This document shows positions 33,432-37,072 of a stretch of DNA of 56,408 bases, one piece after another (within the stretch, counting starts at the first letter, position 1; each line of letters opens with the position of its first letter). This DNA is from Acidiferrobacteraceae bacterium (lineage in GTDB: Bacteria > Pseudomonadota > Gammaproteobacteria > Acidiferrobacterales > Sulfurifustaceae). The notes beneath the pieces were generated by a model, which was given only the letters and a program-made list of their open reading frames with translations, ran no database searches and was not told the DNA's origin. The stretch is from NCBI GenBank assembly GCA_021323795.1, contig JAJPKH010000272.1:1-56408 (forward strand), in the 5' to 3' direction. The position numbers were made by a program, and so were the translations under genes.

Positions 33432-34211
33432 GTGAAGCTTGCCACCTGGAACGTCAACTCGATCCGCGCCCGTTTATCCCACGTTCTTGACTGGATTTCG
33501 TCGAACCAGCCGGATGTGCTTTGCCTGCAGGAGACCAAGGTCGTGGACACGGATTTCCCTTATGAATCGCTGCGGACCGCGGGGTACCACGTCGCGCACG
33601 TGGGGCAGAAGGGCTACAACGGCGTGGCCACACTCACCCGCGTCGCGGCAACGGAAGTCGTCGGCGCACCGCCGGGCCTCGATGGGGACCAGAAGCGAGC
33701 GCTGATTGTGAGCGTGAAGGGCGTGCGTATTATCAACGTGTACGTGCCGAACGGGGAGCGCGTCGGATCCGAGAAGTATGAATTCAAGCTCAGGTGGCTC
33801 GCGGCTCTGCGTACTTACGTCGAGGCGGAACTCGCGCGCCACCCTCGGCTTGCCGTGGTCGGCGACTTTAACGTGGCCCCCGAAGACCGCGACGTGTACG
33901 ACCCGAAGCTATGGCAGAACCAAGTGCTCTTCAGCGAACCCGAGAGATCGGCGTTAAAGCGACTTATCGACACGGGCCTCGTCGATGTGTTCCGGCGCTT
34001 CGAACAGCCGCCCCGTAGTTATACCTGGTGGGACTATCGGCAGGGTGGTTTTCGTAGGAATCTCGGTTTGCGTATAGATCACATTTTTTGCAGCCCGGCG
34101 CTAGCGGCAGCTTGCAAAGGGTGCGTTATCGACAAAACGCCTCGTGCCCGCGAGCGTCCCTCCGATCATGCACCCGTGGTTGCCAATTTCGATACAGCCA
34201 GAATTGCTTAG
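33432..34211 (+). CDS. xthA: Exodeoxyribonuclease III (AP endonuclease)
   Basis: A 259-residue member of the ExoIII/APE1 family starting at GTG. Catalytic residues lie in the usual places: TWNVNSIRARL, CLQETK, GYNGVATL, VYVPNG, VVGDFNVAPED, LRIDHIF and the final RPSDHAPV with the Asp-His pair. It cleaves at abasic sites and removes 3' blocks. Length fits the family (about 255-268). It lies 36 nt after the glutaredoxin gene, and whether it shares that transcript is unclear. Confidence 0.95.
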   Translation: MKLATWNVNSIRARLSHVLDWISSNQPDVLCLQETKVVDTDFPYESLRTAGYHVAHVGQKGYNGVATLTRVAATEVVGAPPGLDGDQKRALIVSVKGVRIINVYVPNGERVGSEKYEFKLRWLAALRTYVEAELARHPRLAVVGDFNVAPEDRDVYDPKLWQNQVLFSEPERSALKRLIDTGLVDVFRRFEQPPRSYTWWDYRQGGFRRNLGLRIDHIFCSPALAAACKGCVIDKTPRARERPSDHAPVVANFDTARIA

Positions 34212-34250
34212 TCCGCAGCTTTAGGTTTTCGTCGGGGGATGCGGCAATGT

Positions 34251-34269
34251 AAATGAGAATGATTTGCAT
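34251..34269 (+). promoter_or_regulatory. Fur-box-like operator
   Basis: AAATGAGAATGATTTGCAT lies 58 bp before the cupredoxin GTG. The 7-1-7 core TGAGAAT-G-ATTTGCA resembles the Fur consensus TGATAAT-N-ATTATCA with three mismatches, and the outer AAT/CATT flanks also fit. Its position suits iron-dependent repression of the cupredoxin-FTR1-hemP genes downstream. Confidence 0.65.
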
Positions 34270-34326
34270 TTTGAAAAAGGATGGGCATAATTAGCACATA
34301 GGCAGTCATTAATTGAAGGAGAGGCT

Positions 34327-34680
34327 GTGTTTATAAGAATCCCAAAGTTCCGGCAGGCATGTGTTGCCGTTCTGTTGTTTGTCTCTACCGCCGGCGTTGT
34401 AGCTGCCCCCGACGAGATGCCCGTCTTCCAACTCACCGCGAAGGACGGGCGCTTTATCCCGGAAACGGTTGAGGTTCCCGCGGGCAAGAAATTCAAGCTG
34501 GTGGTGAATAACGAGGGTCCCGGACCCGAGGAGTTCGAAAGCCATGAACTCAACCGGGAGAAGGTGATACCGGCAGGCAAGAAAGCCGATATCCTCCTCG
34601 GCCCTCTTAAGCCGGGTACTTACTCTTTCTTCGGCGAATTCCACCCCAAGACGGCTAAAGGACAGATCGTCGCTAAATAA
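34327..34680 (+). CDS. Periplasmic cupredoxin-domain protein of FTR1 iron-uptake type
   Basis: A 117-residue protein starting at GTG with GAAGGAGAGG just upstream. The signal peptide runs to about residue 26 (GVVAA). The rest is one cupredoxin fold (FIPETVEVPAGKKFKLVV; FESHELNREKVIPAG; GTYSFFGEFHPKTAKG). The conserved Glu/His residues of FESHE and GEFH are those seen in EfeO-type and FTR1-associated cupredoxins, which bind metal and deliver iron to the permease. The FTR1 permease follows after 23 nt. A Fur-like site lies upstream. Confidence 0.85.
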   Translation: MFIRIPKFRQACVAVLLFVSTAGVVAAPDEMPVFQLTAKDGRFIPETVEVPAGKKFKLVVNNEGPGPEEFESHELNREKVIPAGKKADILLGPLKPGTYSFFGEFHPKTAKGQIVAK

Positions 34681-34703
34681 AGCACTCCAGTCGAGTAGAG
34701 ACC

Positions 34704-35588
34704 ATGTTTGCAACCGGGATTATTGTTTGGCGGGAAGTGTTGGAAGCGGCGATGGTGGTCGGCTTAGTCCTTGCGGCGGCGAGGGGCTTACCCCGTCGGG
34801 GACTTTGGGTGGGCTCGGGAGTGGCAGCAGGCTTAGTGGGTGCGGTGATCGTGGCCGCTTTCGCCGGCGCCATTGCCTCCGCCGCTCAAGGAATGGGCCA
34901 GGAAATCTTCAATGCGTCCGTGTTGTTCGCCGCCGTAGCCATGCTCGGCTGGCATAACGTGTGGATGGCGCGTCATGGAGCAGGCCTTGCGCGCGAGATC
35001 AACTCGGTCGGCCGCGACGTCGCGGCTGGGCGGCGTCCGCACTACTTGTTGGCCAGCATCGTCGGTATTGCCGTCTTGCGCGAAGGATCCGAAACGGTGC
35101 TGTTTCTGTACGGCATTGCCATAGCCCAGCAGGATGAAGCGTCGGCCATGTGGGCTGGAGCGTTGCTGGGATTATTGTTCGGGGCCGGCATGGGATTCTT
35201 GCTGTACATCGGCCTGATGCGGCTTGCGGCGCGCCATCTCTTCAGGGTCACCGGCTGGTTGATTGCGCTTCTCGCCGCCGGCATGGCGGCGCAGGGTGCC
35301 GGCTTTCTGGTGCAGGCAGACTTCCTTCCCGCGTGGGGTCAGCCGGTCTGGGATACGTCGGGACTGCTGTCGCAGCAGAGCTTGATCGGACATGTCCTCC
35401 AGATATTGATCGGCTATATGGATCGTCCGTCCGGTATGCAGGTGCTGTTCTACGTTCTTACGCTCAGCACGATCCTCATTTTGGGTCGGCTTTACGGCTC
35501 TCTGCAACGACGGCCGGCCGCATCGAAGACGCTTGCGCGCGCCGAGTTGGGCAAGATGAAGCTCGCCGATCAGGTCGGTACCAAGTAA
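34704..35588 (+). CDS. FTR1 family iron permease
   Basis: A 294-residue polytopic protein with seven hydrophobic segments and the two iron-binding REXXE motifs of FTR1/EfeU permeases: R10-E11...E14 (WREVLEA) and R126-E127...E130 (LREGSE). It moves ferric (or oxidised ferrous) iron across the inner membrane. No EfeB peroxidase or full EfeO is nearby; the small cupredoxin upstream probably takes the periplasmic role. hemP follows after 16 nt. Confidence 0.92.
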   Translation: MFATGIIVWREVLEAAMVVGLVLAAARGLPRRGLWVGSGVAAGLVGAVIVAAFAGAIASAAQGMGQEIFNASVLFAAVAMLGWHNVWMARHGAGLAREINSVGRDVAAGRRPHYLLASIVGIAVLREGSETVLFLYGIAIAQQDEASAMWAGALLGLLFGAGMGFLLYIGLMRLAARHLFRVTGWLIALLAAGMAAQGAGFLVQADFLPAWGQPVWDTSGLLSQQSLIGHVLQILIGYMDRPSGMQVLFYVLTLSTILILGRLYGSLQRRPAASKTLARAELGKMKLADQVGTK

Positions 35589-35604
35589 GGGGCATTCACG
35601 TCAA

Positions 35605-35805
35605 ATGAGCGCGGACAAGAATCGAGTTGCGTTAGCGCCAACGGGTATCGCGCCGCGGAGCACGGAACGAATGCGTACCCGCGTCGTACCCCGTGTGCCG
35701 AGCAAGGCGCTGCTCGGCGAACACGGAGAGCTCGTGATCGAGCACGCCGGCCGGGAGTATCGGCTGCGGCAAACGAGCACCGGCAAATTAATCCTGACCG
35801 CATAA
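35605..35805 (+). CDS. hemP: HemP family protein (hemin uptake)
   Basis: A 66-residue protein with the HemP core: SKALLGEHGELVIEHAGREY, then RLRQTSTGKLILT. Small HemP proteins are found at Fur-controlled heme/iron loci; some have been reported to act as regulators of heme uptake genes. No heme receptor or ABC transporter is adjacent, so its role here is inferred only from the iron genes upstream. Confidence 0.85.
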   Translation: MSADKNRVALAPTGIAPRSTERMRTRVVPRVPSKALLGEHGELVIEHAGREYRLRQTSTGKLILTA

Positions 35806-35863
35806 GCATGGAGTAGGTCGTCTGCAAGTTAGCGCATAACCAAAACCCTTTTAGCCAGCCATG

Positions 35864-35904
35864 CCCCGAGAGGGGACGCCAGCCAATAACTTTTTTTCGG
35901 GGAG
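35864..35904 (+). promoter_or_regulatory. Possible SD-sequestering leader structure
   Basis: CCCCGA (35864-35869) is complementary to TCGGGG (35897-35902), which overlaps the ribosome-binding site GGGGAG of the barrel gene. The same CCCC can instead pair with GGGG at 35872-35875 across a GAGA loop. Two exclusive pairings suggest, but do not show, translational control. Confidence 0.25.
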
Positions 35905-35905
35905 C

Positions 35906-36778
35906 ATGGCAATGCAATCAGCCCAAGTGTCGCCCGCGACAGGGCGTCGTCGACATTCCTTCATACCATTCTCGCGAGTGCCAGCGCGCCGCAGGCTTGC
36001 CAAGTTCTGCTCGCACGGCTTTCTTTACGGATTGGCAGCTTTCGCACTACTGGTGAGCAGTAAAGCGATGGCGCTTAATTATTTTGAGCTTGAGGTCTAT
36101 CCCTACAAAACCGCGAGCAAGGGCGAGTTCGAATTGGAGAACTTCACCACGCACACGAGCCGCGGAACAAAAGATTTGCCGGCGCCGGACAATAACAAGG
36201 GGCTCACGCGCAGCACTTTCGAATTCACCTATGGCGTCACGGACAAGACCGAACTCGCTTATTACCGCGACTATGCACGGGCGCGCGGCGACAACTTCGA
36301 ATACGCCGCGAGTCGTTATCGAGTGCGCACCCGGTTTTTCGAGAAGGGCGAGCTTCCGGTTGATTTAGGCGCATACGCGGAGCTCGAATATCCGCGCCAC
36401 GAGAATGGTGAAGAGCGGGAAGTGGAAGGAGAGTTGCGCTTGATTCTGGAGAAAGATTTCGGCCGCTGGACCTTGGACTTTAACCCCATTTTTGAGCGTG
36501 CCCTGCGCGGCCCCGATCGCGCGGACGGATGGGAGCTGCAATACGCCGCTGGACTCATTTACCGCCCGAGCGAATATTGGCAGCCGCGGGTCGATCTCTT
36601 CGGCGACTTCGGGCCGATCAGCAACTTCGAATCGCACAATGAGCAGAAACATCTGATCTCCCCGGCGATCGATCTGCGTCTTGGTCGCAGCTTCTTTGCC
36701 ACGTTCGGAGTCGGATTCGGACTGACGGATGCGACCGAGCGCCGTCTGCTGCGGGCGCGCCTGGAGTGGGAATTTTGA
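35906..36778 (+). CDS. Uncharacterised outer-membrane beta-barrel protein
   Basis: A 290-residue protein starting at ATG 35906 with GGGGAG four to five bases before it; an ATG at 35861 in the same frame has no ribosome-binding site. A long, positively charged N-terminal region precedes a hydrophobic core and AMA cleavage-like site (about residue 55). The mature part is a run of amphipathic beta strands with many Tyr, Glu and Arg (FEFTYGVTDKTELAYYRDY; YRVRTRFFEKGE) and ends LEWEF, the terminal Phe of barrel proteins. I do not recognise the family beyond this. It follows the FTR1/hemP genes by 100 nt, so an iron-related or general porin role is possible. Confidence 0.75.
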   Translation: MAMQSAQVSPATGRRRHSFIPFSRVPARRRLAKFCSHGFLYGLAAFALLVSSKAMALNYFELEVYPYKTASKGEFELENFTTHTSRGTKDLPAPDNNKGLTRSTFEFTYGVTDKTELAYYRDYARARGDNFEYAASRYRVRTRFFEKGELPVDLGAYAELEYPRHENGEEREVEGELRLILEKDFGRWTLDFNPIFERALRGPDRADGWELQYAAGLIYRPSEYWQPRVDLFGDFGPISNFESHNEQKHLISPAIDLRLGRSFFATFGVGFGLTDATERRLLRARLEWEF

Positions 36779-36887: not shown

Positions 36888-36907
36888 GCGCCCCTCGCTG
36901 AAGCCAG

Positions 36908-37072
36908 TGGGAGAGATCACGCGCTAAAAAGAGGGGCGTGACGCCGAAGGCGCAACCGCCCGGAATCGCTCAGGCAAAAGGACCGCTGGTTTAAAAAGCG
37001 ACTCTGGAGAGCGGTGGCCGAGCGGCCACCCACCGAAGGGGCTTAGACTCTCAGGTTACCGGACAGAGGGGC
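36908..37072 (+). ncRNA. Tandem glycine riboswitch
   Basis: Two consecutive glycine aptamers with the conserved signatures. Aptamer 1 has GAGAGA, CGCCGAAGGCGCAA (36942-36955) and CTCAGGCAAAAGGAC (36969-36983). Aptamer 2 has ACTCTGGAGAG (37001-37011), CACCGAAGGGG (37031-37041) and CTCAGGTTACCGGACAGAGG (from 37050). It lies between a candidate promoter and gcvT. The 3' strand of the second aptamer's P1 stem abuts the 5' arm of an intrinsic terminator, so glycine binding would be expected to prevent termination and switch the operon on, as in other gcv riboswitches. Confidence 0.95.

Follow-up and report, generated by a model that had tools for sequence, protein, structure and literature searches.

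I found that a 56,408-nucleotide stretch of DNA from an Acidiferrobacteraceae bacterium (contig JAJPKH010000272.1 of assembly GCA_021323795.1; hereafter, the window) carries genes for a cupredoxin, an FTR1-type iron permease, HemP, and an outer-membrane beta-barrel in one row. On balance, the locus is likely to encode a Fur-repressed cupredoxin/FTR1 iron importer that has an outer-membrane channel of its own, independent of TonB; the permease and the channel would sometimes be made as one FTR1-barrel polyprotein. The barrel is probably the importer's own outer-membrane door, as far as sequences and predicted structures can tell. This partnership is well supported by the conserved adjacency of the genes, by in-frame fusions, by an alternative pairing with FbpA, and by Fur-like sites.

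On the plus strand of the window, 115 nt separate xth (33432-34211) from a row of genes for a secreted EfeO/FtrB-type cupredoxin (34327-34680; 117 residues, GTG start; PF13473, 104 bits against a cut-off of 27), an FTR1/EfeU-type iron permease (34704-35588; 294 residues; PF03239, 117 bits against a cut-off of 25.3), HemP (35605-35805; PF10636, 58 bits), and a 12-strand outer-membrane beta-barrel with a signal peptide (35906-36778; 290 residues, C-terminal Phe). The intergenic gaps are 23, 16, and 100 nt. A glycine riboswitch (36898-36995; RF00504, 69 bits) lies 3′ of the barrel gene and directly 5′ of gcvT. Pfam, ORF, and motif scans thus confirmed every part named in the initial annotation: the Fur-like site, the cupredoxin, FTR1, hemP, and the Phe-ending barrel 100 nt on. 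Its statement that EfeB and full-length EfeO are absent was also borne out, since there is no Dyp_perox_N or M75 match in the genome (317 contigs, 89.8% complete). Between xth and gcvT there is no FtrA or FtrD ORF, judging from the ORFs and the Pfam names of six proteins. The genome has two Fur-family matches, one of them strong, and no close FbpA (best match 25% identity). With four TonB plug matches as well, it may have other iron routes besides the barrel.

Overlapping Fur-like matches (13-14 of 19 consensus positions; no strand assigned) lie at 34249-34273, upstream of the cupredoxin gene. The match at 34255 (14/19 to the 19-bp consensus) is the top match of the window, in which a few unrelated places reach 13/19; the exact stretch 34249-34273 occurs once. 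It is overlapped by a sigma-70-like promoter pattern on the plus strand (34263-34291; TTTGCA-17-CATAAT, 9/12), the only such pattern upstream of the cupredoxin gene, although the 3-kb region has two such patterns against 1.1 expected. A sequence scan found no promoter-like pattern between hemP and the barrel gene. A hairpin around the ribosome site of the barrel gene was considered and rejected, as its folding energy is no better than that of shuffles (z 0.29).

Fur-like sites were found at the equivalent position, upstream of the cupredoxin gene, in other loci. When 155 loci totalling 1.55 Mb were scanned with the 19-bp consensus (overlapping matches merged; strong sites defined as at least 15/19; some loci being duplicates), there were 29 strong sites: 17 at the 5′ ends of cupredoxin genes, 11 at the 5′ ends of barrel genes, and one elsewhere. 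These two target zones make up 8-10% of the scanned DNA, yet hold 28 of the 29 sites, and such a positional enrichment is independent of the origin of the consensus. The whole-locus scan supersedes an earlier, weaker count, in which 14% of 44 unfused barrels had an upstream site of at least 13/19, versus 4.1% of 585 random windows; the weakness is perhaps due to profile hits beginning upstream of the true barrel start. Six barrels that stand alone (L204, L206, L208, L209, L210, and L223) have sites of 16-18/19 at their start. Solitary barrels with Fur-like sites support an iron role, though they weaken the argument from adjacency.

The window cupredoxin matches the "EfeO-type cupredoxin-like" PDB entry 8vuk (E 2e-17). 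According to the available excerpt of a study on Brucella FtrB, the Glu residues E84, E86, and E93 are assigned to iron, and D118 and H121 are predicted copper ligands (PMC11966278). In the numbering of that excerpt (PMC11966278), the window protein keeps the whole EfeO/FtrB-type Glu triad as well as H121, while D118 is replaced by Gly, so that one of the two predicted copper ligands is missing. The Glu residues are near-invariant across 102 cupredoxins. Asn takes the place of H121 in 30 of the 57 cupredoxins that adjoin a barrel and in 7 of the 45 without one, as raw counts that ignore kinship. These counts make it possible that the cupredoxin of many barrel loci binds iron instead of serving as a copper oxidase.

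The profile match and two REXXE motifs place the window permease in the FTR1/EfeU family (PF03239); both motifs are invariant in 21 aligned FTR1 sequences. A family of nine loci, f145 (L195-L201, L224, and L225), also has a cupredoxin, an FTR1-like protein, and a barrel together. Its FTR1-like proteins are without REXXE, score 44-67 bits, and have no Pfam match in the two that were scanned. Upstream of the f145 cupredoxin genes, Fur-like matches do not exceed 12/19, and a two-component pair (a response regulator and a kinase) lies upstream in the f145 loci that were read. The f145 family is perhaps an iron-sensing offshoot.

The initial annotation did not recognise the family of the barrel, and the search brought up no curated one: the nearest Pfam match is PF13557 (Phenol_MetA_deg), below threshold (17.5 bits against a cut-off of 22), and there is no NCBIfam match. 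With E values up to 0.1 allowed, seven of 38 members of the barrel family match Phenol_MetA_deg. A profile of the 38 barrels had no true match among PDB sequences, and no match was found in 72,556 plasmid records. In the AlphaFold2 model (38 alignment rows; pLDDT 84.5; numbering from codon 35909), a signal helix at 28-48 is followed by 12 strands predicted with high confidence. TonB-dependent receptors have a plug domain and a 22-strand barrel; the window barrel has 12 strands and no Plug match. No FupA/FslE family is found among the barrel's Pfam matches listed, a comparison by family name only. The closest solved fold is FapF (Z 21.5, rmsd 2.7, 211 residues aligned), next to the COG4313 channel 4rl8 (Z 21.2, rmsd 3.4, 225 aligned); the identity to both is 11-13%, and further barrels score Z 19 or lower. 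A shared fold by itself shows no function. Across 68 positions assigned to the lumen by hydrophobic alternation and not from coordinates, the summed acidic fraction is 17.5 and the basic one 8.9; these sums cover this barrel family alone, in the 34 rows left of the 38 after four distant ones were dropped. Near-invariant lumen-facing acids are E75, D/E229, E286, and E288. Two barrel copies of one genome (L066 and G162:C2:151381-152100) have one in-frame TAG each.

Is the barrel a regular neighbour of iron importers? For the order, 57 genomes were searched with a barrel profile from 11 loci picked by the window's barrel, not by their neighbours, and the barrel was found in 15 of them (17 hits). 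One hit is a distant paralogue in the window's own genome (L023, G000:C144:1240-1776; 51 bits, 25% identity), with no query iron genes adjoining. All 16 strong barrels lie beside an iron importer; 13 adjoin FTR1 and cupredoxin genes (three as in-frame fusions; in one, L235, FTR1 is truncated), and three adjoin FbpA without FTR1. One barrel locus of the order, L014, has both FTR1 and FbpA, the gene order being cupredoxin, FTR1, barrel, FbpA, FbpB. Its FbpA was identified by a PDB hit to an Fe(3+) ABC substrate-binding protein (E 1e-128), and FbpB is a BPD_transp_1 protein (two stretches). The xth-gcvT slot is common to L014, L015, and the window. The four FbpA loci L014-L017 also have a phosphonate-binding-type periplasmic protein near the barrel (PF12974 in L015), divergent in L015-L017.

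Of 274 genomes drawn from the class, 33 carry the barrel (35 hits) and 63 carry FTR1. The surroundings of 32 hits were examined (G300, G289, and a second copy in G162 were left out): cupredoxin and FTR1 genes are adjacent in 22, a cupredoxin gene only in one, and neither in nine. In the phylum draw (398 genomes; 64 with the barrel, at least 155 with FTR1), 52 hits reached 100 bits, of which 27 lie beside FTR1, four beside a cupredoxin gene only (one divergent), and 21 beside neither (19 read and 2 not fetched). At least 12 of the 27 are fused, 11 by equal open-frame length and L228 by sequence. When similarity to FTR1 was the sole criterion for picking 80 loci, a barrel lay within 1.5 kb in 28 of them (fused in eight) and in 52 it did not. 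The orders cupredoxin-FTR1-barrel, cupredoxin-barrel-FTR1, and barrel-cupredoxin-FTR1 were all seen. Duplicates were kept in these counts, namely the same FTR1 in L061/L108, L019/L090, L013/L087, and L119/L120 and four Gallionella loci. The latter (L141, L142, L143, and L145), which are among the 28, are identical, and their barrel match is broken across two frames 3′ of an intact FTR1 gene. L084, from Candidatus Muproteobacteria, has cupredoxin and FTR1 genes, a second cupredoxin gene, and FbpA, with no barrel in the stretch examined.

It had been asked at the outset whether the barrel co-occurs with FTR1 and hemP. Adjacency and fusions in many proteobacteria answer this positively for FTR1. 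In contrast, HemP was rejected as a conserved part of the module, since only one other of 120 scanned loci has hemP, and that locus is without a barrel. The prospect of unrelated neighbours and iron-independent expression does not seem to apply to most barrels, yet 21 of the 52 phylum hits are solitary.

It was revealed that FTR1, a linker, and the barrel are encoded in one frame in 17 ORFs, 16 of them distinct, of about 515-528 residues. In each, the seven helices of FTR1 lead through a linker into a hydrophobic stretch with an Ala-X-Ala-like end, and the barrel comes last. Inspected by eye, the junction of every fused ORF has a short, mostly basic linker after TM7, followed by the hydrophobic stretch. 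All have Ala at position -1 of the cut position expected from the separate barrels, and position -3 is mostly Ala, but also Leu, Val, Thr, or Gly. In the model of the fused L020 protein (pLDDT 77, pTM 0.47), the seven FTR1 helices are followed by a helix at 270-290 and by 12 strands from residue 311. The C-terminus of FTR1 is cytoplasmic; thus, the helix at 270-290 is oriented rightly for a signal peptide. From these sequences, the fused product is probably a polyprotein cut by signal peptidase, and internal translation starts could also yield a free barrel. The hosts are Alphaproteobacteria (Rhodospirillales, Sphingomonadales, and Hyphomicrobiaceae), Betaproteobacteria, and Gammaproteobacteria MAGs, a spread that one assembly error could not credibly explain. 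In a quick FTR1 tree, the fused and unfused labels change 12 times, and at least two changes are forced by well supported branches. A separate 371-residue ORF (L235:4057-5172) has an FTR1 of which only about 127 residues remain, apparently after a deletion, fused with the barrel. The cytochrome b/c1 polyprotein is a precedent, but it carries no weight here. Among the open-licence papers that the searches brought up, none mentions in its title or first abstract lines that FTR1 is fused to a barrel or has one as its partner.

Like FtrABCD of Brucella and Bordetella, which is iron-responsive according to the available excerpt (PMC11966278), the window locus has a Glu-triad cupredoxin (FtrB) and an FTR1-family permease (FtrC). 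Unlike FtrABCD, it is without FtrA and FtrD, adds an outer-membrane barrel, and has Gly at D118. It shares an FTR1-family permease and an EfeO-type cupredoxin fold with EfeUOB, while its genome, 89.8% complete, has the barrel instead of an M75 domain and EfeB. The COG4313/Phenol_MetA_deg channels and FapF are 12-strand barrels too (Z 21), but they differ by low identity (11-13%), and the window barrel stays below the family cut-off and has iron-linked neighbours. Francisella FupA, which goes with FeoB, is a precedent of a dedicated outer-membrane ferrous iron protein working with an inner-membrane transporter, as described in the part of the source at hand (PMC4905997). For FupA, however, a plug domain is predicted and the partner is FeoB, whereas the barrel has no plug match.

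The initial annotation proposed a minimal importer with an outer-membrane barrel partner. Adjacency, fusions, the FbpA alternative, and the Fur-like sites upstream of barrels speak for this proposal, while hemP has dropped out; I infer the passage of iron through the barrel, its substrate and direction, and the cleavage of the fused chain. Fur would repress a locus of three working parts: the barrel, the cupredoxin, and FTR1. The barrel, a putative TonB-independent channel with an acidic lumen, would admit iron, most likely Fe2+, to the periplasm. The cupredoxin would bind the iron by its conserved Glu triad and pass it, possibly after oxidation, to FTR1, which would take it inward via the two REXXE motifs. 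The fused form would enter the membrane as FTR1 with one more helix, the eighth, serving as signal peptide of the barrel; a cut by signal peptidase would then free the barrel for BAM. Several findings count against this model: the 21 solitary barrels of the phylum draw, the f145 loci, the 52 FTR1-picked loci with no barrel within 1.5 kb, and the judgement on Pput2725, the closest solved structure for which transport was studied, that hydrophilic molecules are unlikely to cross it (PMC4493636). There is about an even chance of a broader reading, that of a whole-envelope importer made as one FTR1-barrel polyprotein that is split at the internal signal peptide and keeps its gates at 1:1, with the barrel founding a Fur-controlled iron-channel family used with FTR1, with FbpABC, or alone.

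The barrel may instead take part in iron uptake but pass something other than free iron, such as chelated iron or some other small compound, hydrophobic or organic. Its nearest folds, FapF and the COG4313 channel, and the Phenol_MetA_deg matches of some members point this way. So does the choice of partner, since FTR1 and FbpA deal with distinct iron forms. This reading is unlikely, however, in view of the low identity to those folds, the score of the window protein under the PF13557 cut-off, and the conserved acidic lumen. In addition, siderophore or aromatic-degradation genes were not recognised by eye in the shared-neighbour clusters, part of which were scanned.

It is still less probable that the barrel is an iron-responsive accessory outside the iron path, which holds the permease near the outer membrane or serves two-component iron sensing. 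The regulator and kinase genes of f145 and its FTR1-like partner lacking REXXE would fit such a role, but the signal-peptidase-like site in all 16 distinct fused ORFs would part the two halves, and many loci have intact REXXE motifs and Fur-like sites. That the barrel gene merely lies nearby under Fur control and shares no function with the importer is hardly credible and already disfavoured. Stand-alone barrels do exist, but in-frame fusions occur across many genera, all 16 strong barrels of the order adjoin an importer, and the adjacency is kept in several gene orders.

For FTR1-type importers, the outer-membrane step of unchelated iron is usually left to general porins. The available part of one source ascribes the crossing of soluble metal ions to such porins (PMC4905997), and the FtrB excerpt names no outer-membrane part of FtrABCD (PMC11966278). 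If the dedicated-channel reading is true, a conserved, Fur-linked partner barrel gives this step a testable gene. To fuse a permease of the inner membrane with an outer-membrane barrel is uncommon as an architecture, and such fusions argue directly that the two share a function. If true, the single-chain FTR1-barrel would fix the supply of the gates of both membranes one to one.
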